Part shown: piece by piece, positions 10,975 to 63,095 of the stretch | Layout: every line of letters starts with the position of its first letter | How positions within the stretch are numbered: position 1 is the stretch's first letter | Assembly: GCA_019055375.1 (NCBI GenBank) | Contig: JAHQIW010007058.1 | Span: 123,248-187,247, forward strand | Direction: 5' to 3' | DNA from: Parelaphostrongylus tenuis | Lineage: Eukaryota; Nematoda; Chromadorea; Rhabditida; Metastrongylidae | Length of the DNA stretch: 64,000 bases | The notes under the pieces: generated by a model | Database searches by the model: none | What the model was told of the DNA's origin: nothing | What the model saw: only the letters and a program-made list of their open reading frames with translations | Translations under genes and position numbers: made by a program

Positions 10975-11215
10975 TCTCAATATCTCCTAATTAATATTTG
11001 AGCCAACATGTCATGTGGTGTGTGAAATGAGCTGACTTATAGAGCCCCATACTTGTGTTTCGACCTTGACGCTCTCATAAGTCTGACGATGCCCTTCGTC
11101 TTCTTAAGAGTATTCGACGACGAACATTTTACACTGTATGTCAAGCGAAATTACCACTGAATAGACAGTAGTGAACACTCGATTGCTCCTGGCTGGTATC
11201 TGCAGGGTACTTCTC
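10975..11215 (-). mobile_element. Hammerhead-bearing repeat unit a (minus)
   Basis: Begins with the family end ATTTGAGCCAACATGTCATG at about 10999 and runs through the hammerhead block at 11041-11092 to the CACTCGATTGCTC end near 11180. Single unit without an inverted partner. Confidence 0.7.
11041..11092 (-). ncRNA. Hammerhead ribozyme, degenerate
   Basis: On the minus strand CTTATGA stands where CTGANGA is required (one core change), then a helix II, CGAAAC and a helix III ending GTA. The core mutation should kill cleavage. Confidence 0.5.
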
Positions 11216-11259
11216 TCTGGGCAAGAGTCATTTCGATCCCTTTAAAAAAAACGTATTTA

Positions 11260-12190
11260 TTGGTCTTTTTGATTGTTCAAATAATTCTTCGATAGCACAA
11301 GTAAAATAATTTGAAAGGTACATCTCATCTTGAACAGGCCTTCTTATTGCGCTAAAGAACAAGAATAGAATTCTGTTTCTCATTGAAAGATTTCTCGCTG
11401 ATCAAAGCTCTTTCTTCGAAGTTTTACTTGCCAATCGATAGAAATAAATATGCTCAAATAATTTTTCGATAGCACAAATCAAATAATTTGGAAGGTACAT
11501 CTTATCTTCAATTTAATTTAATTTTTTTTTGAATTTAAGAATTCTTACGATCTATTTGGTTTTCATAATAGACCTGGAATTAAGGCATAACAGCCAAAAG
11601 AAGATTGGGTTCCACAAAAATGGATCACTCAACTACCCTCTTTTCACTTCGATTAATTGGTAAAAGCGTGTTTTTTGATCGCTTCTAATGTTCAAATAGT
11701 TATTCGATAGCTTAAATGAAGGGAATTTTGATGGTGATTTTATTTTTAGGGGCCTTGTTATTGCGCTGAAAGCGCAAGATTAAAAGTTCCTTATTAGAAG
11801 AGTTCTCACTGAGCAGAGCTTCTTTCTCATAGTTTTGAAAACGAAACAATAAATCAAATCTCAGAATTTCAATAATGCCATTGGTTTCTTGAGAGACCTC
11901 ATAGTGCTTCATAAGAACCAAAAAAAAAAAACCAAACCCAATCCTCCTTTGGCTGTCACATTGAGATGCAAAGTCGATATTCAAAGCCAACTAAATTATT
12001 GGAATTTTCAAGAACCGAGTCTATTGATTGATTACTATAACTCTAACGGAAAAGCTTTGGTCAGTGAGAAACTTTTGAATGAGAAAGAACAATTCATTCT
12101 GCTCTTTCAACGCATTAAAGGGGCCTTTTTTAACTTGAAATATACCGTTCTAATTCTTTTGACTTGTGCTATCGAATGATTGCTCACTCA
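11260..12190. repeat. Foldback repeat cluster (TCGATAGCACAAGT units)
   Basis: About 200-nt units occur in minus orientation at 11270-11475 and 11690-11870 and in plus orientation at 11990-12185, each carrying a version of TGTGCTATCGAATGATT and CTTTCAACGCATTA. A further plus copy is at 61740-61905. The opposed copies could fold back on each other. No coding capacity seen. Confidence 0.6.
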
Positions 12191-12199
12191 TTAATAGCA

Positions 12200-12780
12200 A
12201 GCGCAAAATAAGCTTCTTCTGAAGGGCGAAATTGCGTTTGGCTAACGGTAAAGTACCGGTTTTTTTCTACCCACTGATTGTCCTACTTTTCGGCATTTCG
12301 GCAAATACGCCTGCTTCAGAGTCTGAACGTAATACTCATTGCAACGTTACTTATATTACTATGTGTCGTGGAAAAGAGAAATCTAGGGCATTAATACGCG
12401 ATAACTGATTAAGGGAAAAGCAATCACCGTGCAATCTAGTCTAGGGACTACCTATGTTGTTAGCACAAGGTGACGTATGAATCCGCCCCATGGCACTAGG
12501 TCAAATTAACGATAGGTGTCAGCTGAGACCCAGGCTAGAAAACAGTCTGAGATAAGGTGTCATGTGGATGGTTATGTTAAGGCACTCCCCCTTTTTGCAC
12601 ATTTACGGGTTTTTGGAATTTATTTAGAAAGCTTCAAGGACTTTTCGCGCCGATGTTTTCGATTCGTGCTCTAAGATTTTAACCAATACCGCGAAGTCGT
12701 CATCGTTGCCCTTTTGGATCCTAAACGCACTTAGAGGTTTATTAGGGTCCTTCTTTGTTTTCTCGTCTAGGTATATATAT
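12200..12780 (-). mobile_element. Penelope-like element family 2, 3' end fragment (copy 1)
   Basis: Homologous, in the same orientation, to 61950-62600, where the minus strand still encodes the end of a PLE protein (LEAFWINSRNP, GECLNITNHMTPYL). Here the same region is more decayed. It includes a degenerate PLE-type hammerhead (12286-12334) after the ORF end and a TGTA-rich microsatellite at 12786-12812 at its 5' side. Confidence 0.65.
12286..12334 (-). ncRNA. PLE-type hammerhead, degenerate
   Basis: Minus strand reads CTCTGAAGC, a GGCGTATTTGCC hairpin and GAAATG, matching the layout of the other PLE-type motifs (CTGAAGA, hairpin, GAAACG, AGCC) but with changes in the core and in helix I. 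Confidence 0.45.
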
Positions 12781-12785
12781 TGTAG

Positions 12786-12812
12786 GTAGGTGTATGTATG
12801 TATGTATGTATG
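12786..12812. repeat. TGTA microsatellite
   Basis: GTAGG followed by repeated TGTA units; a matching run is at 62525-62555 in the paralogous segment. Confidence 0.8.
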
Positions 12813-12950
12813 TACTCCCTTTAAACAATGACACGGTCGTGCTGGTTTTGCATTTACAAAGGTCCTCTCCTTGGGATGCTGCAGTCTCCCTACTTAGAAT
12901 AAGCGCAGACGAATGATTTGCACAATTGCCGTTATGTGAAGGTCCTGTCC

Positions 12951-12990
12951 AAGTGACGAGGCTGCTCAAGGCTGAAACACGTGTATCCGG
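12951..12990 (+). ncRNA. Hammerhead ribozyme, degenerate
   Basis: Reads GTGACGAG (first core base changed), helix II GGCT/GGCT-like, TGAAACACGTGTA, then TCCGG. The core lacks the leading C, and 11.1 is changed. Confidence 0.5.
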
Positions 12991-13253
12991 TTGTACAAGA
13001 ACCCATTAACAGGCCGCATGACATGCTGGCTCAAATAATAATTTTGAGATAAACGTAATTTGTGCGTGGTCTTAAGAAAACACTCGAAACAAATGGTATG
13101 ACATTTCAAAGTACCAGCCAGGAACAATCGAGTGTAAAACATTGCCGATCTAGTGAATTTTCACTTGGCGGCAATTGTGTAAATGGTTCGCCGTCGTCTA
13201 CTCTTGATAGGGAGATGTAGGGGCTCCCGAGAGGATTGGCTAGAGACGAAGGC

Positions 13254-13300
13254 TGCCTGATTAACGAGGCTGTTTGAGGCCGAAACACGTGTATCGGGCT
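13254..13300 (+). ncRNA. Hammerhead ribozyme, degenerate
   Basis: ATTAACGAG replaces CTGACGAG, while the GGCTGTTTGAGGCC helix II, GAAA, the loop-less ACACGTGT helix III and the GTA-TCGGGC cleavage context are kept. Confidence 0.55.
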
Positions 13301-13320
13301 CTACGAGAGCCCATTAAAAA

Positions 13321-25400: not shown

Positions 25401-27877
25401 TGAAAAAGAATCATACCTTTACTCTCGACTGGTTATATAAAACATCTGAAGAACAATAATAATCTGATAATCTGATAAAGAATATCTCATAATTATTATT
25501 TGAGCCAACATGTCATGTTGTCTGGTAATGGGCTCTTGTACAGCCCGATACACGTGTTTCGACCTTACAGTCTTGTCAGTCGCGCAGGACCCGCTGTCTT
25601 TTAGCTAATCCTCTGTGGGCGCTCCAGTCTCTACACTAAGAGGTAGCGCCGACGAGCGATTTACACCGTAAATCAAGTGAAGTTATCACAGAATTTATAG
25701 TGTTGTACACTCAATTGCTCTTTTGCTGGTATTTTCATAATATCATACCTTTACTTCAAGTGTTTTCTTATGACCACGATCAAATTTCAGAGATTTTCAG
25801 AGAACTCCAGAGCACCTACAGAGCTACTGGCTAAAAAACGACGAGTTTTGCCCGACTGACGAGACTATAAGGTGGAAACACGTGTATCGGGCTGTACAAG
25901 AGGAGCTTAATACTAGACCACATGATATGTTGACTCAAATAATATTATGAGATGTATTGAAATTAGAGCGTGGTTTGAAAACACTCGAAACAAAAGTATA
26001 ATAATCTGATGAAATGTTTTGAGCCCTTGTGAGGCTATAGGACAGTAATTATGGCTAAAGTTACAGAAGTAAGAAAGGGTATTTGAGTTCCATCAAAAGT
26101 CGCCAATAGCAGAACTAAAATCATTCACTATGGCACTTGTACAGAACAATTATAGCTTCCAGAAACGCAACGGAGAAAATCGTCAACAATTACCACTCGC
26201 ATCTATTTATTGAACGCGTTCTCTCACGATCATATACAAAGAAAAAAAAAACCTTTTTGCCATCCCCCGTTTTCCCTCAAAAATTCGACATATTGTCATG
26301 CCGGTGTAGAATTTAAAAGTATCTAGCCCGAGTAAAGTAATAGTAAACAACCAAAGGAACTCTCATTAGTTCTCATTAACATACTTGCTCAGGTCTTTAC
26401 ACTTTGCCGAAATGTAGTGTTTCGGGTCAACGGGAAACTAGCAACACCGAGGTGTTGCTCAAGATGGGACACTTCCACAACATCGGCGAATATTGCCCAA
26501 TCTGCTTGCGGTCTATCGTCTATAAATGTATCACAAATTATCCACAGGAATGACAGAAGAATGAACGAAAGACAGCCATAGGGACAAACATGTATCGAAA
26601 AGGACTCCACCACTGTAGCATAGAGCCATACGAGAATTAGAATGGGAGAACATAGGAAAAGAATCGATGGCCATCGTCTTCACTCTGTGGTGGTAACCGC
26701 TCTAAAACACAAAACATTAGCCAGACGGACTAAATGTCCGATTATCATAGCGGCTGTGAAAAGATTAGTCTGCGGCTAAATCTCAAAGAAACGAAGCTCA
26801 TGAAAAACAAATGAGTTCTGAATGCACCATTTACGCTCATCGAGCTCACGGAATGAGTATCTCGAGATGTTTTAGCTACGTCTGTTTAGGTTGAGAACCG
26901 GCATTACGAAAGATATGGTTTTAGAGTCAAACAAGGAAAACGAGTGACTAACGAAGCGTTGTAGACCACTGAAAATATAGTTGAAGAAACAAGGAACGCC
27001 CGCAGTTGAAAAGAAAAATAGAATTACAAGGGGTCTCTTCAGTGAGAGGATCCATTGGGTTGCTCTTGCACGAGATATGAGAATAAGGAAGTTTCACTGC
27101 TGTCCACTCGAGTCACTCGACGACAGAGAACAACAGGTGATAAAGGCTATGTGAACTACATTGAAAGTCTGCAGCAATCCGGATCTGATCACTCAAGTTC
27201 ATCGGGTTAACAGTAATTAGTTCTCAGTGAGTAGCACTCTCTTGTTGTACGAGACGCCGATATGCTGGTAAATCAATGCATTGGAAGTATGAATGGTAAT
27301 ATTCAAGTAATGAAAGCACTTCATCAGAGAGCCTCAACCAAAGAAGACACGGATTTAATCAAAGTTTAAACTATCTGCTATTGTAAACAGGAAAGCACTT
27401 TTGAACCATCTTCTCAGTGTTCATGACTGAAAAACTAAAATCTTTTTGGAATATAGGTTTATTGAACTTCTCGTACCGCTAAGTACTTACTGACTTTTTG
27501 TTAAGTGAAGACGATCAACCAAAATCTTTTTTTACAGTTATGAATGGAGGCTGCATTATCATCGGTAGTACAGTGACTAGCGTATGCACAATGGTTCCTC
27601 CTGCGATGTGCACGTATGATACCCCATTTACGGGTACTATGCCTGTTTCAGCAATTCATCGAACTATTTCTGGAACAGTCTCAGTTAGACTTACGCCTCA
27701 TCTCTAACAGAACCAATGTTGATGTTATTATGAGCACCTGTTTAGACTACAAACATCATCATGGCAAATTGGACGACCCAAATGTGGCAAAGTGTGATGA
27801 ATAGAGTAGCTCGTTCCTTGGCAACTGGGCCATTTCGCTCGAACTTCATTGGCGTTTCTGTCACAGTCGGAAGTTGA
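22456..27877 (+). CDS. Secreted nematode-specific protein, five exons, intact
   Basis: Exons 22456-22555, 23071-23216, 23312-23465, 27538-27683 and 27746-27877 join without a stop into 225 codons; every phase fits (1,0,1,0). Donors are GTATCG, GTGAGT, GTGCGT, GTTAGA; acceptors TTATAG, CTTTAG, TTACAG, TTTAG. Exon 1 encodes a signal peptide (hydrophobic core LAPLICLVFVV, likely cut before CGTMLPGQ). Exon 2 has FTLPVNMVW and SAMEVQSFVQR; exon 3 EEQGRRAGL and YSPLQCAEV; exon 4 GCIIIGSTVTSVCT and HRTISGTVS; exon 5 NIIMANWTTQMWQSVMNRVA. Cysteines are spaced as in an extracellular disulfide protein. I know similar uncharacterised secreted families in nematodes but cannot name one. A polyadenylation signal AATAAA is at 27889. 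Intron 3 (4.1 kb) holds two LINE fragments and a hammerhead foldback. Four related copies lie in this window. Confidence 0.82.
24050..24125 (-). repeat. Possible degenerate tRNA(Ser/Leu)-derived sequence
   Basis: Minus strand contains GGCTCCGTGGCCGAGTGGTT, the 5' end and D-arm typical of type II tRNAs, but no matching T-arm follows at the right distance. Pseudogene or SINE head. Confidence 0.3.
24440..24905 (+). mobile_element. RTE-type LINE endonuclease fragment
   Basis: An open frame at 24457-24735 contains VHNAEEWFFRTCYTTDASGI and LCSLEQLRTRIVLAVKQ, matching the apurinic-like endonuclease domain of RTE elements upstream of the RT. Frames then break. Located in intron 3 of the secreted-protein gene, same orientation. 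Confidence 0.65.
25543..25585 (-). ncRNA. Hammerhead ribozyme, one core change
   Basis: Minus strand: CTGACAA (G8 to A), helix II GAC/GTC, GAAA, ACACGTGT, GTA, TCGGGC. The core change at the essential G8 should abolish cleavage. Confidence 0.65.
25850..25892 (+). ncRNA. Hammerhead ribozyme, helix II closing pair broken
   Basis: GCCCGA pairs with TCGGGC (helix I, six pairs); core CTGACGA at 25856-25862 and GAAA at 25875-25878 are intact; ACACGTGT helix III; GTA before the cleavage point at 25886. Helix II has lost the 10.1-11.1 pair (G opposite G). It is in sense orientation within intron 3 of the gene at 22456-27877. Confidence 0.75.
26385..27165 (+). mobile_element. RTE-clade LINE fragment, internally deleted
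   Basis: Frames give FHNIGEYCPICLRSIVYK near 26475 (fingers), then a jump to the region just before and after the catalytic box (26640-26760), LKETKLMKNK near 26780, FSYVCLG near 26870 and the C-terminal end near 27060-27150. The core RT domain between is largely deleted. In intron 3 of the secreted-protein gene. Confidence 0.7.
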
Positions 27878-37560: not shown

Positions 37561-37647
37561 GCAAACTGCAACTGCTAAAGCAACGAACCAATGCCTGATA
37601 ATGATTTTTGAGCCAAGAATGTGGTCTGTCATAAGCTAACTTATAGA

Positions 37648-37691
37648 GCCCGATACACTTGTTTCGGCCTTGACAGCCTTGTCAAGCGGGC
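37648..37691 (-). ncRNA. Hammerhead ribozyme, degenerate
   Basis: Minus strand: GCCCGC, TTGACAA (two core changes), helix II GGC/GCC intact, GAAA, AAGTGTA, TCGGGC. Confidence 0.6.
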
Positions 37692-37971
37692 AGTAGCCTT
37701 CGTCTTTAGTCAATCCTCTCGGGTGAGCTCAACCCCTATAGAGAGTTGGCGACGACGAACATTTTTACGTGCCATTGAATGAAAATACCACTGAATGGCA
37801 GGGCAGTGTTTTACATTCGATTGCTCTTGGCTGGTAACGTTAAATATATCTTACCTTTCAAACATGCAAATCAGTAATATTTTCACCTAATGGCACGCAT
37901 CGAATGTTCATCGTCACCAGCTCTCTAGAGCAGAGATTCTCCCGAGGAATTTGGCTAAAGCGAAGTGTACT

Positions 37972-38015
37972 GCCCTACTGATGAGGCTGTTAAGTCTCAA
38001 ACACATGTATCGGGC
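37972..38015 (+). ncRNA. Hammerhead ribozyme, one core change
   Basis: GCCCTA, CTGATGA (intact), a helix II remnant, CAAA where GAAA is required, ACACATGT, GTA-like site, TCGGGC. Confidence 0.6.
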
Positions 38016-38119
38016 TCTATATGTTGCCCTATAATAAACCATACACATGGCTCAAAAATGATTGACAGGCATATTGAAATTTGAGTGTGGTCTTGAGAAA
38101 ACACTTGAAACAAAAGAAA

Positions 38120-39876: not shown

Positions 39877-39879
39877 TGA

Positions 39880-41498: not shown

Positions 41499-41619
41499 TT
41501 GGTGTGACTTTTGAAAGATTCCATATTCTTCTGCGATTTATTTTGAAACATTTTCTGGCCAATGTTTCCTGCCTGGTTCGAGTATTTTCTTAAAACCACG
41601 CTGAAACCTGAACATGTCT

Positions 41620-42062
41620 CGAGATTATTATTTGAGCCAACATGTCGTATGGTCTGTTAATAGGCTTCTGTACAGCCTCGGACAGGTCCTTCGTCTCTAG
41701 CGAATCCTCTCGAGGGTCCCTATAAGCCCTGTAAGGATTAGGCGGCGACGAACGATTCACATAAGTACCGTCAAGTAAAATAAATCACAAGGGCTACACT
41801 GCTTATCACTCGATTGCTCTTCGCTGATATTTTTGAAATATTATACTGTTTGTATTGACAAAAAGGCAATCGAGTCTAATACACTGCCCATCCAGTAAGT
41901 TATTCTCTCGACGACAATTGTGTAAGATCATTCGTCGTTGCCTACTCCCTACATGGGTTGTAGGGTCCCTCGAGAGGATTGCCTAAAGACGAAGGGCCTG
42001 CCCGACTGACGAGGCTGCAAGACCGAAACACGCGTATCGGGCCGTACAAGAGCCCATTTACA
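41620..42062. mobile_element. Hammerhead foldback pair h/i
   Basis: Left minus unit (41625-41830) has lost its ribozyme block by deletion (GCCTCGGACAGGTCC in place of the core); right plus unit (41860-42062) keeps an intact ribozyme. The right unit stops just after AGCCCATTTACAG, without the usual outer end. Confidence 0.8.
42000..42042 (+). ncRNA. Hammerhead ribozyme, intact core
   Basis: Helix I: GCCCGA (42000-42005) pairs with TCGGGC (42037-42042), six pairs. Core CTGACGA at 42006-42012 and GAAA at 42025-42028. Helix II G-C and G-C pairs with an eight-base loop region. Helix III is ACACGCGT, very short and without a loop. The triplet GTA (42034-42036) precedes the predicted cut. All conserved core positions of a type I hammerhead are present. 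Confidence 0.85.
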
Positions 42063-44100
42063 GAAAAGAATTTTCTCTTGGACGAAAGCATGGTACGATA
42101 TTAATTGAAGTTGGAAATAGCACGTTATCCTCTTCCTCAAATTAAAATGTCTCTCTGTTCTTGTAAAAGCTTCGTTATGACTGTGTGTGTCACTGCAATA
42201 ATAGTTCGTTGGCAGTGGGATTTATTTTCGGTCAGGTTCTACAATAGTCTATAGAAATTACCCATCATATTGGTACGAGAAAGAGAATTCATATTCAAGA
42301 CAACCTGAGTCTTTGAATAATAAAAATCGGCATGGAATGCGAAGAGTTGGTGGTGTCTTGTGGTGCCGATTTTGATCTATACAAATACCTAGAGACATTT
42401 TTCAATTAAATGCAAAAGGTAATAACTGTGTTTAAAGTTACATTTCGTTGCGTAGTCAACTCAGAGAATGATTTATTAGACAACAACGTATTTGATGTGC
42501 GGTATTTCGCAGCTACGTACAGTGACACGGGCTCCCTTGAAGTTCTCTTTCAGTGGACCCTTTGCTAAAAAGCTAAGAGCTTGGTCCATATTCTCTTGCT
42601 ACGTACTAGTCGCCGAAGTGACAAGATATCTGTTGTTGGTCTAAAATGATGACTTTACTGATACGAACATCGGGCTCACAATGTGCAAAGACGTTTTCAG
42701 ATGATTTTCTCTTCTCAATGAAGTATCGACTAAATAATGAAGCACAAAGTGAATTTTTCAACCACTTTCTTGTTTCGACAAAACATGATCTCGTCTTTTC
42801 GTGTCAATTACGAGACTGGCAAGCAGCATTCAGAAAAACGCAAGAAAACATCAGTGATCTGTAGCGCTTTGTAATAAAGCTTATCGACTTTCCCTACAAG
42901 AAAAAAGCGTTGCCTTCTAAAAGTGATGATAATCAAACCTGTCCGCTTGAAATGATCGGCTTCACAGTATTGCAGCATAGGAAGTATTTTCTGAGTATGT
43001 CTCAAATGTCTGCTCAACATATTTTACATTTACACATATAAACCCATCTCTACTCTTGACTAAGCGGATCCCACTATTCTGAGCCCTTGATTGTTTCTTT
43101 CATGCAATAGAAGTCTTTACATTTTGTGCGCTTTTCGACTGCCGCTGGAGGATTTCATCTTCTTCATAAGATTGTAAGATGCTGGTCGGACAATATATAT
43201 GCAATCTAGAGGGTAACCCGAGCTAGAGCGTTTCGTAAGCCATTGTTGATAATTGCAGAAATGTTGGCGAAGGGAGCGAACGAACACCTTATAATATTAG
43301 CCCACAACACTGACCACTCAATCACCGTTCCCTTGCTTCCCTTGATCTTACAAATTGAACAAGTAACAATCTCCTTTCAATACACTCATTTCGTTCTCAC
43401 AATGGTTGAATGTCATATTACGGATTCCTTCTATGAACGAATTTCTGCTTGGGTTATCCAGAATATTTACAATAATACATTAGCTCCATAAAAGCAGGAA
43501 TTCAAGGAATTATCAAGACGCATTTGTCTCAAAAAATGCTATCGATAGTATGCCAAAGTGGGATCGCAGGGCAGTCGCCATATCATGTCAACAATGAAAA
43601 TTTCTTTAGAAAAGCGAAAATAAACCTTAAGGAAAAGGAAGCAGATATAGTCAAAACTGCAAAAACTGAGAAAAGCATTGACAGACCACCGAAACGCCGC
43701 CATCTACCATGATGGGCGCCCGCGGACAAAACACTTGCAGCTTCCAGGAGAATATTAGAGAAAATCATTGACGCATACCACTCAGATCGCATTGATAGTA
43801 ACGTCCTCTTACTTTGTCATTTGATAAAGAGGAATGATTTGTTCTCCCTGTCTTCTTCAGAAGACCAAAATGCCACTGCACCAATGAAATTTAGACAGGA
43901 GAACTGATCTAGCATAGCGTTTTGACGGCAAGTGTTAGCAAAAACCAGAAAATTAGAGGAGAAATACAATGCTGAATGAATTCTGTGGCAAGAGAAACTC
44001 AATAGGCTACGCTCGCTTGCAATATGACAGCCTGTAAGTTTCACTGGCGTTCCCTCAAGACAACTGACTATCAAAGAAAGAGCAGACAAGAGGTAAAAAT
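42063..44100. other. No confirmed gene
   Basis: AT-rich. A lysine-rich plus-strand frame after a TTTCTTTAG acceptor (43604-43712, ending KRRHLP) might be a terminal exon but has no other support. The plus-strand frame at 43243-43491 is likewise unsupported. Confidence 0.25.
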
Positions 44101-44541: not shown

Positions 44542-45384
44542 CTGTAAAATATAAAAAACTCGCCATTTTGTTCAAACTGAATTATGTCAATTACTTCTGG
44601 TTGCTACCTTCGTGTAATGAATCGATTACTGCTATCCAAATGCTTTCGATTTTGATTGAAAGGCTTCAACGTCAAGAATCACAACAAAAGCTCTTAAAAG
44701 TCACAACTCTGTTTTTCTTTCACATTTTTTGCTACAGTCTAAAATTTGATCAAAAAATGTTGATTCTTGAATTGAAATAGAAGCGTTTACACGATAGAAA
44801 AAAAATTATCTCCTAATTGTTTCAACTGTGAGAATTACGATATTTTTTGAAAAATCTTCGTAAGTCAAAGCGATTTTCGTATCTCGAGTTCGAGTAAACT
44901 CAGAAAAGGAGAGAAAACAAAGCGGTAATCTTCTACCTCAATGGCAAAGTGTGCAAATTGTAAACTTTTCCATGCGTAAGGGCTATCTTCGAATTTGTTC
45001 CCCGTTATTTCAAGAACACTCAGCATCTAGGCAAAGGAATTTAGATGTTTGAAAGTCATTCCGACCCTTGGCCTTCTAAAAAGAAAATTAGTCAAATTGG
45101 GCTCAAACTTCATTGAAAGAAAATAATTGTTTTAAGAAGACAAAACTGTTCAAAGTGTTTTGCTCCAAATTATGTTGTTCAGTCGACTACTTTCGAAGGC
45201 GCTTCTCCGATGGTAGTGAATGTCGTGTGATCGAATAGTGAGTAGTATGGAGTAAGTTTTTTCAAATACTGCACAATATAGCCTTACATTTTTCGGATAC
45301 TGAAGACTCCCTACTTGAAATATTCATCTAAAGGCACCTTTTGCTTCGAGTGTCTTCTTAAGACTACGCTCAAATTCCAATATC
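44542..45384. other. No gene seen
   Basis: AT-rich; the 95-codon plus-strand frame at 44493-44780 partly overlaps the decayed copy and has no motif. Confidence 0.3.
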
Positions 45385-45656
45385 TCTCATGATTATAATT
45401 TGATCCAACATGTCATGTGGTCTATAATGAGCTCTTATTCAGCCCGATACACGTGTTTCGGCCTTCAACAGATTCGGCAGTCGCGAATTCGCGACTGGTG
45501 CAACTGAAGAGGATTGGCTAAAGACGAAGGGCTTGCCTTGACTGCAGTGTGAATCGTTCATCGTCACCTACTCCAAGTGAGGGAGTGGACGCGTGTAACG
45601 GGCTGTACAAGAGCCCATATCAGACACATGACGTGCTGGCTCAAATAATAATTATG
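45385..45656. mobile_element. Hammerhead foldback j, rearranged
   Basis: Left end TTTGATCCAACATGTCATGTG and right end CATGACGTGCTGGCTCAAAT are the inverted family ends; internal parts are shuffled and shortened. It directly abuts the 3' end of the minus-strand PLE at 45657. Confidence 0.7.
45442..45490 (-). ncRNA. Hammerhead ribozyme, broken
   Basis: Keeps GAAACACGTGTATCGGGC on the minus strand but the CTGANGA side is replaced by unrelated bases. Confidence 0.5.
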
Positions 45657-45769
45657 ACACATCAGTATCTTCTTCTGTTTAGCCGCTCCGAGGTGTTACT
45701 GATATTATTTATTGAATATCAGCGAAACATATAACAATACAGTTAATAATGCAGCATGAATTAATATAC

Positions 45770-45835
45770 AATATTACATATATAATATAATAATATACAT
45801 ATATAATGTAATAATATACATATATAATATAATAA
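45770..45835. repeat. AT-rich tandem repeat
   Basis: Three units of about 23 nt built from ACATATATAATATAATAATAT in the 3' end of PLE A; the plus-strand copy B lacks the expansion. Confidence 0.8.
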
Positions 45836-45848
45836 CAACAGTCGTGGT

Positions 45849-45885
45849 GGCTAACTCTTCGGCAAGGTTCGCCATCTTCAGAGCC
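45849..45885 (-). ncRNA. PLE-type hammerhead, nearly complete
   Basis: Minus strand: GGCT (helix I), core CTGAAGA, helix II GGC/GCC with GAACCTT loop, GAAGAG where GAAACG is expected, then TT and AGCC pairing with GGCT. With copy B it shows the ancestral form: GGCT, CTGAAGA, hairpin, GAAACGT, AGCC. Confidence 0.65.
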
Positions 45886-47645
45886 TGGAAAGGTCAAATT
45901 GATTCGCAAATTATTGAATCAAAGGCCTTCATAACCCTAACAGAAAACGTAAGAGATAAATTTTTGGGTCGCATAGGAAAAACTTCATTTCAAAAACACT
46001 CACCACTTAGATGTTTTAGGTCTTTCAATTGATCACTGAAGACCTGCCACTTGGAGTCTGTGCTACTGTAAGACTGTGCCTGGCTCAGGCCGGGAATATT
46101 AGCCTGAGGTATGGTGCTGGATCACGCGTTATTACGTGGCATTCCTCTTTATGGTTCATTTTTGGGCCTTCGCTATGTATCCAAAAGACTTCCAAAGTTT
46201 TACGCGTAGATGTTATCGATTCCTCTGTAAGGGCCGCAATTTGACGTCAAAATCTGCTCTTCTATGCTTCTGCTCCTTATGCGTGCCTAGCGGGGTTTTT
46301 GGGTCGGAGTTATGTTTCCCAGCTAGGTGCTCTTTCACGCAGATGCAGTGTGGTCTACCCGTTTCGCCAATAATTCATTCCCGCATGCCTCGCAAGAGAT
46401 CAGCTAAACTGTGCCCGACTTCATGCAGTCGCCGTCTCTGCCGTTTGGGCAAACTTTGCAGTCGTTAGTTTCGCAGAGACGATCATACAGTCGGTTGCGG
46501 ACTGATTGGCGTTTTAGTGTTTTTGGTGCTATCTCGACTACTGCTACCGAATTATCTAAGCCTGCGCTTTTAAGCAGCGTTTAATGGCTGCACTTAATTC
46601 GTTAGAAGTAAAAGGCAGGATGAATGGAACTTTATCTTTGCTGCACCTTCCGTATAGGGGGGTCGAATTTCCTCTATATTGAACCTGAGAAGCTCCTATC
46701 GTGTTGTAGCCATTAGAGATGACTATTTTTCGCGCCAAATTCAGGGACTCTACCTTATGTTCCTTTCCTATGCACACATTAGCAGCTGTTCGAAACATGT
46801 TTTTTATAAGTGCGCATTTTGTGTGCGAGGGATGAGCAGATAGGTAGTGAATCAGGCTGTTTTTGTTGCTTGGTTTACGATAGCACTTTATGCTGGTAGG
46901 AGTTTTTAGAGAGGTTAACTTGAACGTTTCGAAAATGAAGCCAATTTGCCTTAGGTTTTTCACGGGAGAACGTTATGTACTCTGACTGACTATACAACAA
47001 CTCAAAACATTTGTCCATTTCCTCTTGCGTTGAGCAGAAGACAAAGCAATCATCTACATACATGCAGTAGATTAACTGCCGGAGATCGATTACTGGGACC
47101 TTAACTTTAGACATAAAAGCGATAGCGAGGGTCGGAGCTAGTCGTTGTCTCATTGCCAGCCCTCTGATCTTGGCAAAATAATTTCCAGACCATCTAAAGA
47201 ATGAGCAGTTTAGGCACTCTTTTAAGAGAGCCATGACCTGCCGAATAGGAAAGCCATACATGTTCGTAGTTCTTTTGTGCTCCGTTAAAAGCTCGCATAT
47301 GGCTTGCATTGCGGACTCATTTGACATGTTTGTATAAAGAGCGGTTACGTCGAACGATTCCATTACGTACGCGTTGTTGGGAGACGCCTTACATAGATGA
47401 TCCAAAAACATTTGGGTATTGATAAGATGGACTGGAATGTGTTTAAGTAGTTGAACTAGTATTAAGTTTAAAAACCACGTTATTCTGTCCGTTGGCCCGT
47501 CCCCCACAACTGATGATGGGTCTAACTTTGAATTTTGATGGATCAGTAGACGCAAGATCATCAATGCATACCAACTTATGAGTCTTAATAAGTAACTGCA
47601 AGACGGGGCATGATAATTTATTGCAAACTGCTCCAGCCAAATATT

Positions 47646-50632
47646 TCCGACTAATGAGAGAGACCTGTCACTAAGACAAAAGATCGCCTTAGCTAGACAA
47701 ACAATTATTTCCCTCCGTCGCTGCTTAAAACACAGAATCGTTCCTAACTTCATCAGGCGAAAACGACTTCACGAGCTATGCGGGCGACCAGAAGACGATC
47801 AACGAGTATTGAGCATCGAATTAAGTCTCCTACGAGAACCACTTCGAATGAAACCTGGTCTAATGTATTCTCATTTAAAGGAGTGTGAGTCGAAAAAATT
47901 TTATTGTTTTTAATATTTGGAGGTGAATCAAGGGTGGGTCAATTTTGATTTGTGAATCTATTAGGTCAAATGCTAAAGTAACCTTATGCAGAAAATTTGA
48001 AAAACTTTTGAGCGATTCGCGTAGGCAAACTTCAGCGAAACACTATGATACCGTTAACGAAAGTCCTAAGAGTCTAACTAACATCAGTAATGTACAGGAA
48101 ACATCAAGGGTCACCGTGTTAAGAGGCATGACTCTTCCCGATAGTGCTCGCTCGCTCTCAGAAATGGGCCCAAGTTTCTCACCAGCGTAATCCATTTCTG
48201 AGGAAACCGTGTGTAGTATCGCGTGCAATTTGCAAGACCTTCAAATCGGCTCCGCTATAAAGCTAGACTAGAACCACCCAACGTGCACGAACAACAGGAA
48301 AATGTAGGAGCATTGCCAACACCGCCTTTTTCTCAAGGTTCTTCAGGCAACAAACCCTAATAATGACGTGGATATCAATTTTCGCATATTTTCACAGGAA
48401 ACTCTTAGAATCCTTAACCATATCGCGCGAGAAGGTATAGCTCCAAACTAACATCAACAAAGAAAAACGGTATAGGACAGATATGGGAGCTAATAAAGTC
48501 CAAAACCATTCGACTACCAGTTAGTGATAAGGGAGGAGAGTTCGTGGTAATTCCCCATAAGTTGGATGTTGAGATAACGAAAAAAACGCCTAGAGGACAC
48601 TACACCCTATCGTCCATCATACAATAAGGAGCTTCAAAAACAGTATCGAAGGTTGAATAGTGAATGGGTAAAAATAGCAAGTTCGGCCGGTGTAAAATCT
48701 TCCGTTATTTCTCAACTAAAACTTAGTCCACCATCATACCCCGTCTTTTACTTACTTATTAAGACTTATAAGTTGGTATGTGCTAATGATCTTGCGTCTA
48801 CTGATCTATCAAAATTCAAAGTTAGACCCAGTCATCAGCTGTGTAGACGGCTAACGGATAAACGTGGTTTTCAAACTTAATACTAGTCCAACTACTAAAA
48901 CACATTCCAGCCCATCTTACCAATACCCAAATGCTCTTGGATCGTCTACGTAACGCGCCTCCCAACAACGCGTACGTAATGGAATTGTTCGACGTTACCG
49001 CTCTTTATACAAACGTGTCGAATGAGTCCGCAATGCAAGCCATATGCGAGCTTCTAACGGAACACGAACGAACTACGAACATGTATGGCTTCTCCATTCG
49101 GCAGGTCATAGCTCTCTTAAAAGAGTGCCTAAGCTGCTCATTCTTTAGATGATCTGGAAATTATTTTGCGCAGATCAGAGGGCTGGCAATGAGACAACGA
49201 CTAGCTCCGGCCCTTGCTATCGCTTCTATGTCTAATGTAAAGGCACCAATACCCGATCTCGGCCGTTACTCTACTGTAGGTATACAGATGATTGTTTTGT
49301 CGTCTGCTCAACGCAAGAAGAAATGGACAAATGTTTTGAGTTGTTAAATAGCCAGTCAGAGTACATAACGTTCACCCGTGAGAAACCTAAGGCAAACTGG
49401 CTTTCATTCTTATACGTTCAGGTTAGCCTCTCTAAAAACTCCTACAACACAAAGTGCTATCGTAAAGCAAGCAACAGAACATCCTGATTCAGTACCTATC
49501 TGCTCATCCCTCGCACACAAAATGCGCACTTACAAAAAACATGTTTTGAACAGCTGCTATTGTGTGCACAGGAAAAGAACATAAGGTAGAGTCCCTGAGT
49601 TTGGCCCAAAAAATAGCCATCTCTAATGGCTACAACACGATAGAAGCTTCTCAGGTTAGAATTAGAGAAATTCGGTGCCCTTAGACGGAAGATCTAGCGA
49701 GGATAAAGTTCCATTCATCCTGCCTTTTAATCCCAACGAAGTGAGTGCAGTCATTAAATGCTGCTTGAAAAGGGCAGGTTTAGATAATTCGGTAGCAGTA
49801 GTCGAGATAGCACCAAAAACACTAAAACGCCAATCAGTCAGCAACCGACTGTAATGTCGTCTCTGCGAAACCAACGAGTGCAAAGTCTGCCAAACGGCAG
49901 AGATGGCGACTTCATGAGGTCGGGTACAATTTAGCTGATCTCTTGCGAGGCATATGAGGATGAATATATTGGCAAAACGGGTAGACCACACTGCATCCGC
50001 GTGAAAGAGCACCTAGCTGGGAAACATAACTCCGAGCCAAAAACCCACGTCACGCATGGACAGGCTAGGCACGCATGAGGAAACAGAAACATAAAAGAGC
50101 AGATTTTGACGTTAAATTCACGGTCCTTGCACAGGAATCGAAAACGTCTACGCGTAAAACTTTGGATGCCTTTTGGATACATAGCAAAGGCCCAAAAATG
50201 AGCCACAAAGAAGAATGCCTCAGTAATAACGCGTGAACTAGCACCATATCTCAGGCTAATATTCCCGACCTGAGCCAGGCACAGTCTTACGTTAGCACAG
50301 ACTCCAAGTGGCAGGTCTTCAGTGATCAATTGAAAGACCTAAAACATCTAAGCGGCGAGTGTTTTTGAAATGAAGTTTTTCCTATGCGACCCAAAAATTT
50401 ATCTCTTACGTTTTCTGCTAGGGTTATGAAGGCCTTTGATTTAATATTGCTAATCAATTTGACCTTTCCATGCTCTTAAGATGGCGAACCTTGCCGAAAC
50501 GTAAGCCACCACGACTGATGTAATATTCATGCTGCATTATTAAGTGTATTGTTCTATGCTTCGTTGATATTCAATAAATAATAACAATGACACCTCGGAG
50601 CGGCTAAACAGATGAAGATACTGATTTATTCA
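47646..50632 (+). mobile_element. Penelope-like element B, near full length
   Basis: Plus strand: N-terminal region with NFIRRKRLHELCGRPEDD (about 47736), SLLREPLRMKPGLMYSHL, TVLRGMTLPDSARSLSEMGP (about 48110), VSDKGGEFVVIPHKLDV (about 48520), LLIKTYKLV and KFKVRP (about 48750-48820), LFDVTALYTNVSNESAM (about 48980), GLAMRQRLAP (about 49180), a frameshifted catalytic region near 49270, REKPKANWL (about 49380) and EYIGKTGRPHCIRVKEHL (about 49960-50010) with an intact YIG motif. Ends with a 3' region matching element A and the GCTAAACAGATGAAGATACT end. Many stops and shifts; dead. It lies head to head with A; the junction is at about 47645. Confidence 0.88.
50471..50507 (+). ncRNA. PLE-type hammerhead, one core change
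   Basis: TGCT, CTTAAGA (G to T in the core), GGC/GCC helix II, intact GAAAC, GTA, AGCC. It is the counterpart of 45849-45885. Confidence 0.6.
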
Positions 50633-50864
50633 AACTATGCGAGGTTAATAGATAGTCGGTCCTGGGAATTATGGCACATTCAAAAATAAAAATTCGCTGT
50701 TCGCTCAGACTTGCTCCTAACGTAAACCTATCCAAGTCCTCTTCACATCCGCGTAATGTAAGTCCTTCGTAGAGACTGAGAATTTATGTGTGTGAGAAGA
50801 GAATAAATCCGTCAGTAATTATTTAAACAGTAAGAGCTATGTACCGTTGTTTTAACCTGAAAAG

Positions 50865-56054: not shown

Positions 56055-59000
56055 TCAACTTCTAACTGTAACAGAAGCTCCAAAGAACTGCAGTCTGAAT
56101 GGCCCAGATGCTAAGGAACGAGCCACTCTATTCATCACGTCCTGCCACATTTGAGTCGACCAATTTGCCATGATTATATTGGTGGTCTAAAAGGAACGTT
56201 TATATTGACATAAACTTTTCTACTAGAGATAATAAGCAATCTGACCGAGACTGTTCCAGAAATAGTTCGATGTTGTACTGGTACGGTCGAACGATCCATT
56301 ACCATACACATGGGCTGCGCGGCTGCTGCTGCTGCTGCGGCTGCCGCTGCGGCCGCTGCGGCGCCGGCGCCGGCGGCATGTCGCATATGCTGGCCACTGT
56401 GTTGCCGCTGATAAAGCAGGTTCCCTTTGGCCCCGCTGTAACAGTTTCATTAGTGATTGTCTTTCTTTCAACTAAACAGTAAGCAGACAACGATACTACC
56501 GAACATATTTGCTGATCTTTTTTGAAAATTCCAATATTGTCACTCCTCTACCAACTACGACTGGTGTGGAATTACTCGGAAATACTTATACACAAAGGAT
56601 TCAAAATAAAAAGCTTTCGAGGAATGGCTGTCTTCGTACGGTGACCGAAAGGTCAAATCGTGGCAATGAATTTGTTTCGTCCTTCATTAGTGTTTGTGCT
56701 AAAGCGCTTCCACTATTGCCATCGTTCATACTTCCTATGTTCAATTCGTTTTTCCAAACATGCCAATTAGCAGCATTCAGCAATACACAAAGAAATTGTT
56801 ATGTCCGCTTTGTTATGAACTTTCTCGTAATGTTCATTTTATTGATGGACAGACACAACGTTGTCAACAAAACTTCCTTTTTCACAACGCTGATTGACGA
56901 TTCGGTTGTTTCATATTTGCAGTTCAGAGGGTAAATAAGGCAGAATTTCGGAATCGGTTAGAGGGTTGGCGATCCGGCAACAATCAACTCCAGGCTCAGT
57001 TGTTGCTTTCATGTCTAGCGCGGATGCGCCAATTCTCAGTCGGCGTTCAGTGCTCTAATTTTATACCTTCATTTCGAGTGTTTTCTTAAGACCGTGCTAA
57101 ATTTCAGTAGATCTCTTCATTATTATTTGAGCCAACATGTCATGTGGTCTGATAAGGGCTCTTGTACAGCCCTATACACGTGTTTCGACCTTACAGTCTC
57201 GTCAGTTGGGCAGAACCCGTCGTCTTTCAATCTTTTTATTAGCCAATCCTCTCGGAGCCTGCTCTCACTACAGCGAGGTATTGTTCCGTGGTCTCAAGGA
57301 AACACTCGAAATGAAGGTATAATATTATGAAAATACCAGCCAAAGAGCAATCGAGTGTAAAACACGTAAGTTCGGTGATATTAACACTTGACATACAGTG
57401 TAAATCGTTCGTCTTCGATACCTCTCTGTAAGGTGAGCAGCTCTTCGAGAGGACTGGCTAATAAAAAGATTGAAAGACGACGGGTTCTCCCCACTGACGA
57501 GATTGTAAGGTCGAAACACGTGTATCGGGCTGTACCAGAGCCCTTACCAAACCACATGACATGTTGGCTCAAATAATAATGAAGGGCTCTAATTGCAATA
57601 GATAGATGATTGTTTTGTCATCACTTTACGTTTTATACTATACGTCAAGTGAAATTATCACTAAACAGACAGTATTGTGCTCTCGATTGCTCTTGGATGG
57701 TATCGCTAATATAACATATCTTCCGCTTTGAGTGCGATTCGAGTGTACAGCACTCCTCTGTTCAGTGATAATTTCACTTGACCTACAGTGTAAAATGTTT
57801 GTCGTCGCATACTCTTAGTATAGGAAACTGAGTGCCCCGAGAGGATTGGCTGAAGTCGAAAGGGTACCGCCCGACATACACCGTCAAGGTCGAAACACAT
57901 GTTTGGGCTCTATAAGTCAGCCCTATATGACAGACCACATGCGTGGCTCAAACAATGAGTATCTGGCATATTGAAATTTGAGCGTGGTCTCAAGAAAACA
58001 CTCAAAACGAAAAGTAATTTTTCTGATCACTGATGACTTTGATAGATCGCCATTTGTAAAAGTCATTGCAATCGTTCAGATAATTCAATTTGATCGAAAT
58101 TCCGAGCTCTGGAACGCTGCATTACAACGTGTGATTTTTTGTCGACTCCGGAATGCTGAGCTCCCGGCAACATGATATTAATGAATACATTAGATTTTTC
58201 TGACAAGCCGTGAAAATTTGTAATTGCGTGAGGTCATTGTTTCAGTTTTATCTGCAAAATCTGATGGAATAAAAAGTTAGGGAACGGAATGAGTACGAAC
58301 GCATGTCGTCGCTTGAGGCGGCCATTTCTTCGCATTCAAGTGGACTGTAGCGAGCTTGGATAGAAAGCTGATTTAAAATGGCAGATATCACAGCAGGAAG
58401 GAGACCGGCACGACGGCCCTGTTCTTCCAGTACATCAGTGACCTGAAAATATTCAAACGCAAGTTGAACCATTTTTCAACAGGCGTGCCACGAAAGCACT
58501 GATACGAAAGTAACATAACTCCGTCGTAAAACTCACAGCATGCATTATCAGACGATGTACGAGTGACTGGACTTCCATTGCGCTTCTCAGAATCTCGGCA
58601 TTCTTTGCTGCTGTTGTAGGATTAGATGTCCAAACCATCCTAACAGGCAGGGTAAATCCACTGACGTTGAAGGCTACTCTTCGTTCTGCAGAATTTAAGC
58701 ATATAGTTTCATCTGAATTCAGTTCTGGACGATGCTTATTTTCTCTTATAGTTATGCTTGTGTCCCGGAGTAACTACTACTGCCTAAATGATATCAGAAC
58801 TTGTAAAATTGCTTCTACGCCCACTTATCAAAGAAAAATGGCGGTTTTGCTACCAGAACAGTTACATGTCTTCTATTTGATTCTTTTTCTCGCAATCGTT
58901 CATTAATCAGAAACGTGTTGCGTTTTCGATAACACAAAGGAGTAGTGTGAGTGAGTACTATGGTTGATTTTCGGTAATACAGAGGAGTAGTGAGAACCAG

Positions 59001-59559: not shown

Positions 59560-61735
59560 ATTTCTGAAGTTGGAGAGCAGAAAGGAGTTTGGTGAAAGAA
59601 CCTCGAGACAATCCGAGTAAGTGCTATTTCGCTTTTGACGGTCATCTCAAATTCGTTTCTCACGCACATTCAAACTATTAGAACGTGATAAATATGGACA
59701 AAAATAATACTGCTTTTGAATTCAGTTATAACAATTGACGATCAATATAGCAAACATATGTGAATACAAGCAGAAGGAACTCAAATAAACTTCATTGTTT
59801 GTTTTTAGTGTTCTGAATTGTTTTGAGGAGAAGAATTTGAACTCTCGACCGAGTGAATTTCTGTTTCGTGCTAATTTTCGAATAAATCAAGAGTATATAA
59901 TTGTTCGGCAATACCGAATTTAGAAGTAAGGCGCTTCTCAAATGATCATTTTGAGTTGTTAGGTCAACGGCAAGAGTGGGAGAATCCAAGCTTCAACTTT
60001 TTAGAGTGCTTGTAGAGTTTTTCTATACGTTGCACTCTCTAAAAGATGTTCAGTGTGTGCGAAAAAGTTTCAGTGTAACGAAGGATACCTTTGTAGTAAA
60101 AAAATGCTTAAGGCACTTCAAGCTTAATTATGCAAATGCTCCCTAGCTTTAAATCATTGCAGGACTTCCATAAAAAGTGGAAGACAAAGTTTTGTGGACA
60201 CATATGAGTTCACGATCCATTTCAGCGAACGCTGAATGCCGTGCAAGATATCTGCGATCCAAAAAGAGTTGCAAACTGCTCATCGGCTTGGCATTAACTT
60301 CTTCTAGCAGTGCTACTCGTACTGTCCATACTTACTTCTCAAGTACACAGGAGTAGGTTGAAGTTCAGCATTGGAAAAAAGAAGCAGAGACGTCCATTCA
60401 AGGACGCTGAATAAAACGTTATGAGCTTTTCTATTCTTATGTTACTTTCGAACGGCAAGCTCCTATAATTGAGCGAAATGTTCCAATAACGTTGATAAGT
60501 CACTCGATTCGCTGAAATATCAAAACAGAATTCCACAGCCATAAGCGCTCGAGCGTATTTTTCTTCTTTTACATTAATCTCAAAGCGTAAGAAAGCATTG
60601 AAAGGGACTTTGTTTCCATTTTGTTAGGAGATTCTATAGCTATACCACCATTGAAAACCTATAAATGGCCAAAGCAAATGTGATTGCGTCAGCATATGAA
60701 AAATAACGAAAATTTTTTTCCCACTGCCTACACATGGCTAATGAAACTATTTGGGCGTTTCATGGAAATACTGCATTTACACAAGGAAGTTAGAGAATGA
60801 CAGAATGTAACAAAGGCTACGACGGTGAAATGATATTGTTGTTGTGTTCTCATGAAAAAGACACTTCAAAGCAGAAATTGTTCGCAGACGTCCTGCTAAA
60901 TGTAATTCAAAGAGGTAAACTTTGTCGTCGTACCCTCCTTGATAGAGAATCTGTGACAGAAAACAGTAATTTCGAATTTCACATTGAATTTTCACACTGT
61001 ACTCAGACTTGAAGCGTCCAGTAGTGATGACGTCTTTTCGCAAATTCTCACCTGCCGACCACCACTGATGAAACTAGAATAGATTGCTCGGAACATATGC
61101 TTATAACGAATATAAACTCGAAACATCTCTTATTGATTCTTGCTCTTAAGAATTGCTAGCGCAATGTTCAAAATGAAAGTTCAGTTAGAGCTTCCAGTTT
61201 TTAGCGGTTCAAATAGCATCTTGATGTGGTTCTAAAGGTTCTTACTTTACTTGAATAAAACCAGTAGGGCTGTGAGTAGCGTAGTATTCTAATCTATTCT
61301 GATGCGCTTGATAGACATTTGAGTATAACTTTAGCTCACTCTAACTAGCAGCTACCTCAGTTTGAGAAATGGAATCTCAAATGGTAGAGACTGGAGGATG
61401 GGAATATCGGTAATCTTCGTTGTTGATGTGTTGTTTTCAATTTTTTCACACTATCATGACGTCGTTACCTAGATATTAGTTGACAAGTTTATTGATGATA
61501 AATATTTTTATATGCTTAGTTGACGATATGCTGATAATAAGATATCTTTTCTATGAATGGATCACAAAAAGAATCATCACAAATACTTTTTGGATTAACA
61601 ATCAAAGTTGACATGGCTACAACCGAAACGTTTCTTACAAGAAGTGATCCATTTTGCGAAACCCAATCTTCGTTTAGCTGTTACAGCGTAATGCGCTGTC
61701 CTTTTCAAAACAATTTAAAGCGTTGAATTCTCAAA
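59560..61735. other. No confirmed gene
   Basis: AT-rich. A plus-strand 72-codon frame (60797-61012) and an overlapping minus-strand frame (60777-61043, with YDDKVYLFELHLAGRL after a TTCTGTCACAG acceptor) compete; neither can be confirmed by eye. Confidence 0.25.
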
Positions 61736-61739
61736 TTTG

Positions 61740-61905
61740 ATCCATCGATTAATTATTAAATCTCTGAAGGGGAAGCTTTGATCAGCGAGAGACCTTTAAT
61801 GGGGAACAAAATATTAGTTTTGCTCTTTCAACGCAATGACAAGGCTTTTTCATAGTTGAAATACACTGTACGAATTCTTTTGATTTAAGCTATCGAATGA
61901 TTACT
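61740..61905 (+). repeat. Foldback-repeat unit, plus copy
   Basis: Same unit as at 11990-12185 (CTTTGATCAGCGAGAGACCTT, GCTATCGAATGATTACTC). Confidence 0.6.
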
Positions 61906-62039
61906 CAATCATTAAAAGCAAGCGTAAAATAAGCTTTTCCTGAATAGTCGGAATGGCGCTTGGCTATTGGCAAAGTGCTGGTATCTTTTCCCGATCGATT
62001 GTCCTACTTTTCAGTCCATATGTTTTCTTCGGTACTTGT

Positions 62040-62072
62040 GGCTGACGGTTCGGCAATTACGCCTTCAGAGCC
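62040..62072 (-). ncRNA. PLE-type hammerhead, two core changes
   Basis: Minus strand: GGCT, CTGAAGG, hairpin ending TTGCC, GAACCG, TC, AGCC. Helix I GGCT/AGCC intact. Confidence 0.5.
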
Positions 62073-62524
62073 TGAAGTATTATTCATTGTAACGTTACTT
62101 ATATTACTATATGTTGTGGAAAAATATAATCTAGGGCATTAATAAGCAATGATTGATTCGGGGAAAACCAACCACCGTGCAATCTAGTTTAGGGACTACC
62201 TATGTTGTTAGCACAGGATGACGCGTGACGCATGTATCCGCCCCCATTGTCACTAGGTCAAATTCGATAGGTGTCAACTGATATTCAGACTAGAAAATCA
62301 GCCTGAGATAAGGTGTCATGTGGTTGGTTATGTTAAGGCATTCTCCCTTTTTGTACACTAGCGGGTTTCTGGAATTTATCCAGAAAGCTTCAAGATTTTT
62401 TTGCGCCGAAGTTTTCGATTCGTGGTCTAGGATTTTGAGTACTCCTTGAAGTCGTCGTCGTTGTGCTTTTACATCTTGCGTACTTAGAGGTTTGTTAATG
62501 TCTTTCTTTGTTTTCCCGTGTAGG

Positions 62525-62555
62525 TATGTATATGTAGGTAGGTGTATGTATGTAT
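62525..62555. repeat. TGTA microsatellite
   Basis: GTAGG and GTATG units; counterpart of 12786-12812. Confidence 0.75.
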
Positions 62556-62710
62556 GTACTTCCTTTTGATCAATAACACGGTCATGCTGGTTTTTCATTT
62601 GCTAGGATACTCTCCTCGAGATGCTCCAGTCTTCCTACTTAGGATAGGCGCCGAGGAACGATTTGCATAATTGCCGTCAAGTGAAGGGCCTGCTCTCAAG
62701 TGAAGGGACT

Positions 62711-62753
62711 GCCCGGCTGACGAGGCTGCTCAAGGCCGAAACACGTATAGGGC
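62711..62753 (+). ncRNA. Hammerhead ribozyme, cleavage site damaged
   Basis: GCCCGG, CTGACGA (62717-62723) and GAAA intact with a GGC/GCC helix II, but helix III and the GTA triplet are shortened (ACACGTATAGGGC). Confidence 0.6.
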
Positions 62754-63014
62754 TGTACAAGAGCTCACTAACAGGCCACATGACATGCTGACTCAAAATA
62801 ATAATAATGAGTTATATTGAAATCTGTGCGTAGTGTTGAGAAAACCCTCGAAACAAATGGTATGATTTTCAAAGTACCAGTTAGGAACAATCGAGTGTAA
62901 AACACTGCCGATCTAGTGATTTTTCACTTGGCGGCAATTGTGTAAATCTTTTGCCATCGCCTACTCTTAATAAGGAGATGTAGGGGCCCCAAGAGGATTG
63001 GCTAAAGACAAAGG

Positions 63015-63061
63015 CTGCCCTACCAACGAGGCTGTTTAAGGCCGAAACACGTGTATCGGGC
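63015..63061 (+). ncRNA. Hammerhead ribozyme, degenerate
   Basis: ACCAACGA replaces the first core strand; GGCTGTTTAAGGCC, GAAA, ACACGTGT, GTA and TCGGGC are kept. Confidence 0.55.
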
Positions 63062-63095
63062 TGTACGAGAGCCCATTAAAACATCACATAACCAC

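Follow-up and report, generated by a model that had tools for sequence, protein, structure and literature searches.

How a short, non-coding repeat with a hammerhead ribozyme motif came to be spread through a nematode genome is the question raised by a 64,000-nt stretch of Parelaphostrongylus tenuis DNA (GenBank assembly GCA_019055375.1, contig JAHQIW010007058.1, positions 123,248–187,247 of the forward strand). This whole stretch is hereafter called the window, and coordinates refer to it unless a genomic locus (L) or contig (C) is named. A preliminary description, made from the letters of the window, had listed about 15 units of such a repeat family and read them as a non-autonomous, retrozyme-like element. 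It overlooked the layout of the units in inverted pairs and the signature that their insertion has left, and this signature turned out to be the more informative part. We report that the insertions have ends of the type made by Penelope-like elements (PLEs), and we consider it very probable that each unit is a copy of a small retrotransposon without coding capacity, of the kind known as metazoan retrozymes, inserted through PLE machinery as in the model proposed below.

The repeat family itself is real. A 19-nt end motif matched the window ten times at no more than three mismatches, against 0.03 matches expected in shuffled sequence, and 16 arms carry the hammerhead region, two of them damaged there (the minus arm at 41.6 kb and the plus arm at 45.6 kb). 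In the genome (481.5 Mb in 5,105 contigs) the motif has 4,139 exact copies, while the reversed pattern that served as a control has none. We mapped a unit at every position that had been listed, although several strands had to be corrected. The unit at 45385 is a minus arm with a plus partner at 45507–45657, the supposed plus unit at 57640 is a minus arm (57632–57734), and those at 12885 and 62640 are short minus stubs ahead of tandem dimers in plus orientation. Two further statements did not survive. The end sequences are not common to all units, there being only ten matches to the 19-mer for the 16 arms, and the unit is not about 304 nt long, as the monomer is 308 nt in the window (an exact period at two tandem places) and 319 nt in a young genomic array. 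We used the 308-nt period as a circle, with position 1 directly after the hammerhead cleavage site, and mapped all window copies onto it. Because local alignment with lax gaps smeared the unit ends, three stricter alignment schemes were compared. For the genome sample, 72 loci were made from end-motif places and 32 of them used (20 from the start of the list and 12 from its end), which gave 78 arms. These loci were picked by the exact end motif and not by the hammerhead, a choice that disfavors ends before about nt 48 and over-samples copies with two end motifs.

Inverted pairs are the prevailing arrangement. At eight of the nine window loci a minus arm is followed by a plus arm with the 3' ends outward, the exception being the 10.98-kb copy; of the minus arm no more than a stub is present at either tandem locus. 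The 32 sampled loci contain 21 minus/plus neighbors within 60 nt and no plus/minus neighbors. On the 319-nt circle the outer ends concentrate at two places that lie about 49 nt from each other, site 1 at nt 48–76 and site 2 at nt 99–132, and 72 of the 78 sampled arms end within these two ranges, which were chosen after the ends had been seen. In a control with freely placed ranges, 11 of 15 window ends were covered, a number never reached in 2,000 simulations. Each pair tends to use one end of each site. This is the case for 17 of 18 classifiable sampled pairs, judged by the outermost arms of each insertion, and for all four classifiable window pairs (25.5, 37.6, 45.4 and 57.2 kb), or 21 of 22 when pooled (binomial 5.5e-6). 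The inner ends of the window arms did not cluster (P = 0.72). Site 2 lies within a stem-loop formed by GCACTCGA and TCGAGTGC with an inner hairpin (positions 95–150); nine copies were read, two of which fold otherwise.

Could such pairs be short interspersed nuclear elements (SINEs), mobilized by long interspersed nuclear elements (LINEs) and inverted by twin priming? Twin priming likewise yields the minus/plus order, and retrozymes have been discussed as SINE-like in the parts of the papers available (PMC8969392; PMC7761336). We regard this explanation as very unlikely, because the outer ends sit at two fixed internal positions separated by about 50 nt, with one used on each strand, rather than at a poly(A) end and a random site, and because 65 of the 78 sampled arms cross the cleavage site. 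The latter observation further implies that the template was uncut or religated. Arm lengths fit a circular template on which synthesis ends near its own start, as nine arms measure 1.00–1.085 laps where 2.1 would be expected from neighboring lengths (Poisson 0.0004, post hoc).

The insertions are also marked by target-site duplications. Duplications that pass the 5% control level mark 18 of the 53 sampled insertions, compared with 2.65 expected; most are 9–15 nt long, and 12 of the 21 minus/plus pairs are among the insertions so marked. One of the 18 (L012), which repeats flanking sequence similar to the unit, is perhaps no true duplication. Two of the nine window loci have duplications as well, one of 13 nt (25.5 kb) and one of 9 nt (57.2 kb). 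A fold-back DNA transposon, or one resembling miniature inverted-repeat transposable elements, that contains a hammerhead-like sequence by chance might also show inverted ends, short duplications and the similar centers seen in three window pairs and in L009 and L012. We judge this explanation extremely improbable, since the centers of most inverted pairs differ between loci, insertions of a single orientation with duplications exist (L031, L035 and L037) and the hammerhead helix covaries, as described below.

A closely similar set of features is known from PLEs. As described in the parts of the source papers available, PLEs have pseudo-long terminal repeats (pseudo-LTRs) in inverted orientation, an optional 31-bp tail on one inverted repeat and duplications of 8–10 bp (PMC3846280), and a purified PLE cuts and extends both strands, with reverse transcription starting at two adjacent internal sites that sit in an AC-rich stem-loop and whose interval equals the tail (PMC11167929). 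The unit insertions share with PLEs the inverted orientation, the one tailed end (here about 50 nt), the short duplications and an apparent internal start of reverse transcription near a stem-loop. Since these insertion scars are like those of PLEs, a PLE enzyme probably spreads the unit. The parallel between the site-2 stem-loop and the AC-rich stem-loop of PLEs is suggestive only. Unlike PLEs, which encode a telomerase-like reverse transcriptase and, in the canonical ones, a GIY-YIG endonuclease, the unit is without a reverse transcriptase or endonuclease.

PLE genes are present in the same genome. We scored 85 of 23,840 first-look candidates, and 80 of the 85 are without a stop inside the match. 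Among the listed matches there are four close opposite-strand pairs (C406, C2112, C3665 and C4864), all in minus/plus order. Three PLE genes at C2880:13547–21025 stand in direct tandem with a period of exactly 2,985 bp and have equal frames of 893 aa. The window holds an inverted PLE pair (Table 1) whose left arm, aligned to the PLE end of C531, stops about 55 nt before the right arm (positions 406 and 461). The stop-free frame of its minus arm matches RVT_1 with an E-value of 2.2e-6, below the Pfam cut-off score. Of its 76 matches six carry no source name, and all the named ones are from nematodes, namely Angiostrongylus, Ancylostoma, Necator, Haemonchus, Heligmosomoides, Nippostrongylus and Parelaphostrongylus. 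The last of these belongs to Strongyloidea, and a strongyloid nematode is the probable host.

Given these genes, the units might themselves be pseudo-LTRs of an unseen autonomous PLE family, left behind as solo and inverted ends. Their insertion signature is that of PLE pseudo-LTRs, and PLE remnants lie near units at four window places (45.66, 12.5, 56.9 and 62.4 kb). In the genome sample 12 of the 32 loci contain PLE matches, which in four loci (L021, L023, L030 and L039) come within about 500 bp of a unit. However, the 300-bp spacer of the C2880 tandem and the 3' end of the C531 PLE carry a different, minimal hammerhead-like motif, and in these two PLEs similarity to the unit was not found beyond chance matches of 9–10 nt. 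The units are therefore not the ends of the PLEs examined, which agrees with their reading in the preliminary description as a non-autonomous element. Moreover, where a PLE match lies close to a unit, the unit never leads into a PLE N-terminus (match-by-match reading covered six of the 12 loci, and only a few query proteins extend to the N-terminus), and the frame downstream of the unit in L021 begins in mid-protein. We thus consider an origin of the units as pseudo-LTRs unlikely. Hammerhead-like motifs of PLEs also occur about 70 nt past the last PLE-coding stretch in L021 and L025, and helix II of these two (L021:5908 and L025:7106) differs by a compensated pair (GGCG/CGCC, GGCA/TGCC). The start codon inside the published PLE hammerhead was considered as an additional difference and dropped; the C2880 and C531 motifs are also without one.

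The hammerhead of the unit consists, in order, of CUGANGA, helix II, GAAA, a two-pair helix III with a palindromic four-base loop, and GUA or GUC. By this order of core parts it is a type I hammerhead. An outer helix Ib is visible beyond the internal loop (76.5% of cells paired), which makes the motif fuller than the minimal one in PLEs of the same genome. In the alignment of 13 window hammerheads 82.9% of cells pair, compared with 18–46% in slid versions, and in 59 genomic hammerheads (51 distinct) 86.4% pair, compared with 20–49%. The predicted helix II covaries in both alignments. One of its pairs is G-C in seven window copies and A-U in six, and in the genomic copies the same pair is A-U in 25, U-A in 20, G-C in 3 and unpaired in 2. 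Cells changed on both sides of a pair number 31 in the genomic copies versus 14.6 in shuffles. In the genome sample 58 arms span the core, and in 45 of them it is intact and H17 allows cleavage. When four monomers were folded as circles, the z-scores were -3.3, -1.55, -3.8 and -0.4, with no uniform signal.

It had been proposed that the ribozyme core was kept while the rest of the unit decayed. This is invisible among the old copies of the window, where pairwise identity is 73% in the core and 70% elsewhere (P = 0.33). In the genome sample it is plain. With one young monomer as the reference, 19 of 687 cells at eleven core positions are changed, compared with 1,736 of 14,412 cells elsewhere (P = 0.00075 against random position sets; none of 318 shifted patterns was as low). 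Local alignment may favor conserved stretches in old copies, a bias of which the young class should be largely free. In the 26 arms of at least 90% identity none of 253 core cells differs (P = 0.015), and all 22 core-spanning arms of that identity are intact. Position H17 was scored apart from the core because it differs between subfamilies (A in 35, C in 23, T in 2 and G in none of the 60 cells seen). An earlier test that counted position 17 as core gave P = 0.006 for the young class and 0.53 and 0.21 for two older classes.

The preliminary description was right that the units are non-coding. They are short, and no shared reading frame was seen; no long frame for a reverse transcriptase or endonuclease was found in seven copies, and the longest stop-free frames over three laps, read in six copies, range from 36 to 120 aa and vary in length. 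Their GC content is 0.41–0.45 (five copies), and tandem dimers occur in the window at 12.95/13.26 and 62.7/63.0 kb, with one arm of 2.08 laps in L036. Metazoan non-LTR retrozymes are described, in the available text, as non-coding units of 170–400 nt with GC below 50%, a type I hammerhead and tandem dimers, which co-exist with PLEs bearing minimal hammerheads (Cervera and de la Pena 2020, PMC7229834). The unit is like them in each of these respects, being short, non-coding, low in GC, of type I and found in dimers beside PLEs of the same genome, and its very short helix III with a palindromic loop resembles the axolotl retrozyme form described there as working as a dimer. Other features by which such retrozymes are recognized are tertiary contacts between loops 1 and 2, expression as linear and circular RNA, and the absence of LTRs, a primer-binding site and a polypurine tract. 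Plant LTR retrozymes, as portrayed in the same text, are also non-autonomous and hammerhead-bearing with a proposed circular RNA, but they carry a type III hammerhead in their LTRs whereas that of the unit is type I. With a hammerhead whose helix II covaries, copies in tandem and inverted arrangement, and stop-free PLE genes in the genome, the reading of the family as a non-autonomous retrozyme-like element is supported.

How animal retrozymes return to DNA has been discussed before. PMC7229834, in the part available, considers LINEs or PLEs as helpers and favors PLEs, chiefly because of common features and joint occurrence, and a curation guide states, in the part available, that retrozymes may rely on PLEs (PMC8969392). 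In our case the insertion ends themselves point to PLEs. Metazoan retrozymes are described as tandem repeats and the word 'inverted' is absent from the main text of PMC7229834, whereas the family described here often has inverted pairs, a tail on one side and short duplications. The new part is the footprint that links a retrozyme-like family to PLE-type ends; the mechanism beyond it is what we infer. The string 'Nematod' is likewise absent from that main text. Our literature search found no report of a retrozyme in Strongylida, although subscription papers were mostly outside its reach, so that this says little about what is in print. Under the same limit, the sole paper found to join hammerhead ribozyme, retrozyme and nematode concerns, in its available part, human ribozymes.

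In the model that we propose, hammerheads whose helix III is very short would pair and cleave the unit RNA that carries them, and the cleaved RNA would be ligated to a circle of about 308–319 nt. A PLE reverse transcriptase/endonuclease encoded elsewhere would cut both strands of the target. Reverse transcription would be primed by one cut strand at site 1 of the RNA (about nt 48–76 past the cleavage site) and by the second strand at site 2 (about nt 99–132), each complementary DNA (cDNA) being copied round the RNA, often for about one lap. Once joined, the two cDNAs would form a minus/plus pair that has a one-sided tail of about 50 nt and is flanked by a short duplication of the target. As a tentative generalization, to which we do not commit ourselves, animal retrozymes may be parasites of PLE integration in which each strand is primed at one of two adjacent sites and the circular, hammerhead-made RNA is then copied, preferentially for about one lap. 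If this is true, the inverted pairs would preserve in the genome a direct record of both the circular-RNA template and the helper enzyme. The rule of one end of each site is also relevant to the way in which PLEs employ their two start sites. Because thousands of copies exist, some nearly identical and with PLE-type ends, the question of the helper is directly testable in one genome and with the published purified PLE protein.

Several observations weigh against this interpretation. In addition to the window core being no better kept than the rest, two of the five measures of pairing (the number of pairs with both sides changed and that of additional pair types) showed no excess over shuffles, most window hammerheads do not adopt the hammerhead shape as the minimum in free-energy folding, and Rfam reported no window unit even at E-values up to 1. 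As to the end sites, L013 has two site-1 ends and is the sole exception among the 18 classifiable sampled pairs; in L011, L025 and one pair of L027 one end lies at neither site; and four of the eight window pairs (41.6 kb, 57.7 kb and the two tandem loci) are not classifiable. No significant duplication was seen at 35 of the 53 sampled insertions or at the other seven window loci. The one-lap excess was noticed post hoc, and arms of 1.16–1.43 laps and one of 2.08 laps also exist. Finally, L009:3933–4286 and L012:3930–4286 are built alike in three parts, two minus and then one plus, with almost the same junctions, and this would not be expected if arms were paired anew every time a unit inserts. 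Together with the three similar centers in the window, this layout suggests that some pairs may have been copied whole.

Table 1. Repeat units, duplications and PLE sequences in the window. Site 1 and site 2 are the two places of outer ends.
Feature	Position	Strand	Remarks
Single unit copy	10977..11198	-	old; internal deletion; outer end site 1
Stub before tandem dimer	12885..12940	-	
Unit of ~1.2 laps	12941..13317	+	two hammerheads, near 12950 and 13258; period 308 nt
13-nt target-site duplication ATAATAATCTGAT	left 25456..25468, right 25998–26010		0/400 random control pairs as good
Unit arm	25482..25789	-	one lap (0.99); outer end site 1
Partner arm, 25.5-kb pair	25828..26002	+	outer end site 2 (with tail)
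Unit arm	37595..37858	-	outer end site 1
Partner arm, 37.6-kb pair	37860..38114	+	outer end site 2
Unit arm	41574..41858	-	about one lap; hammerhead partly deleted; outer end site 2
Partner arm	41867..42063	+	intact hammerhead core 42006–42036; outer end truncated
Unit arm	45336..45476	-	outer end site 2
Partner arm	45507..45657	+	rearranged hammerhead; outer end site 1; adjoins PLE minus arm
Minus arm of inverted PLE pair	45670..47655	-	shorter outer end; stop-free frame 46878–47768
Minimal hammerhead-like motif of PLE	45858..45878	-	second copy 50478–50498 (+)
Plus arm of inverted PLE pair	47665..50670	+	decayed reverse transcriptase and endonuclease; outer end ~55 nt longer (tail)
9-nt duplication GCTCTAATT	left 57052–57060, right 57586..57594		0.75% of random controls as good
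Unit arm	57063..57259	-	intact hammerhead core 57175–57205; outer end site 2 with tail
Partner arm	57287..57599	+	about one lap (0.95–0.98); intact hammerhead core 57494–57524; outer end site 1; alignments stop between 57580 and 57599
Short arm	57632..57734	-	
Partner arm, 57.7-kb pair	57739..58021	+	second subfamily; outer end site 2
Stub before tandem dimer	62633..62685	-	
Unit of ~1.3 laps	62695..63092	+	hammerheads near 62712 and 63020; period 308 nt

The units of the window are listed in Table 1. Both tandem dimers lie within a larger repeated element of 2.1 kb, present at 11934–14005 and 61659–63764 with 80% identity, and each copy of this element has a minus-strand remnant of a PLE endonuclease, with its dimer bracketed by a direct repeat of about 50 nt. 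The unit pair at 37.6 kb is enclosed by an inverted repeat (35255–36182 and 38947–39877, 91.5% identical). A search of Pfam with the 166-aa frame at 37184–37681 gave no match.

Other hammerheads were encountered as well. A separate type I hammerhead, unrelated to the unit, lies at 6137–6183 on the minus strand; its core is intact and its helix III is a palindrome of 12 nt. Folding gives the hammerhead shape, the score with Rfam RF00163 is 30.1 bits, under the 34-bit cut-off, and no second copy appeared when the window was compared with itself. Hammerhead-like motifs with other palindromic helix III sequences (e.g. CACCGGTG) were also seen at L022:1924, L034:1703 and L038:6843 and perhaps represent a further family.

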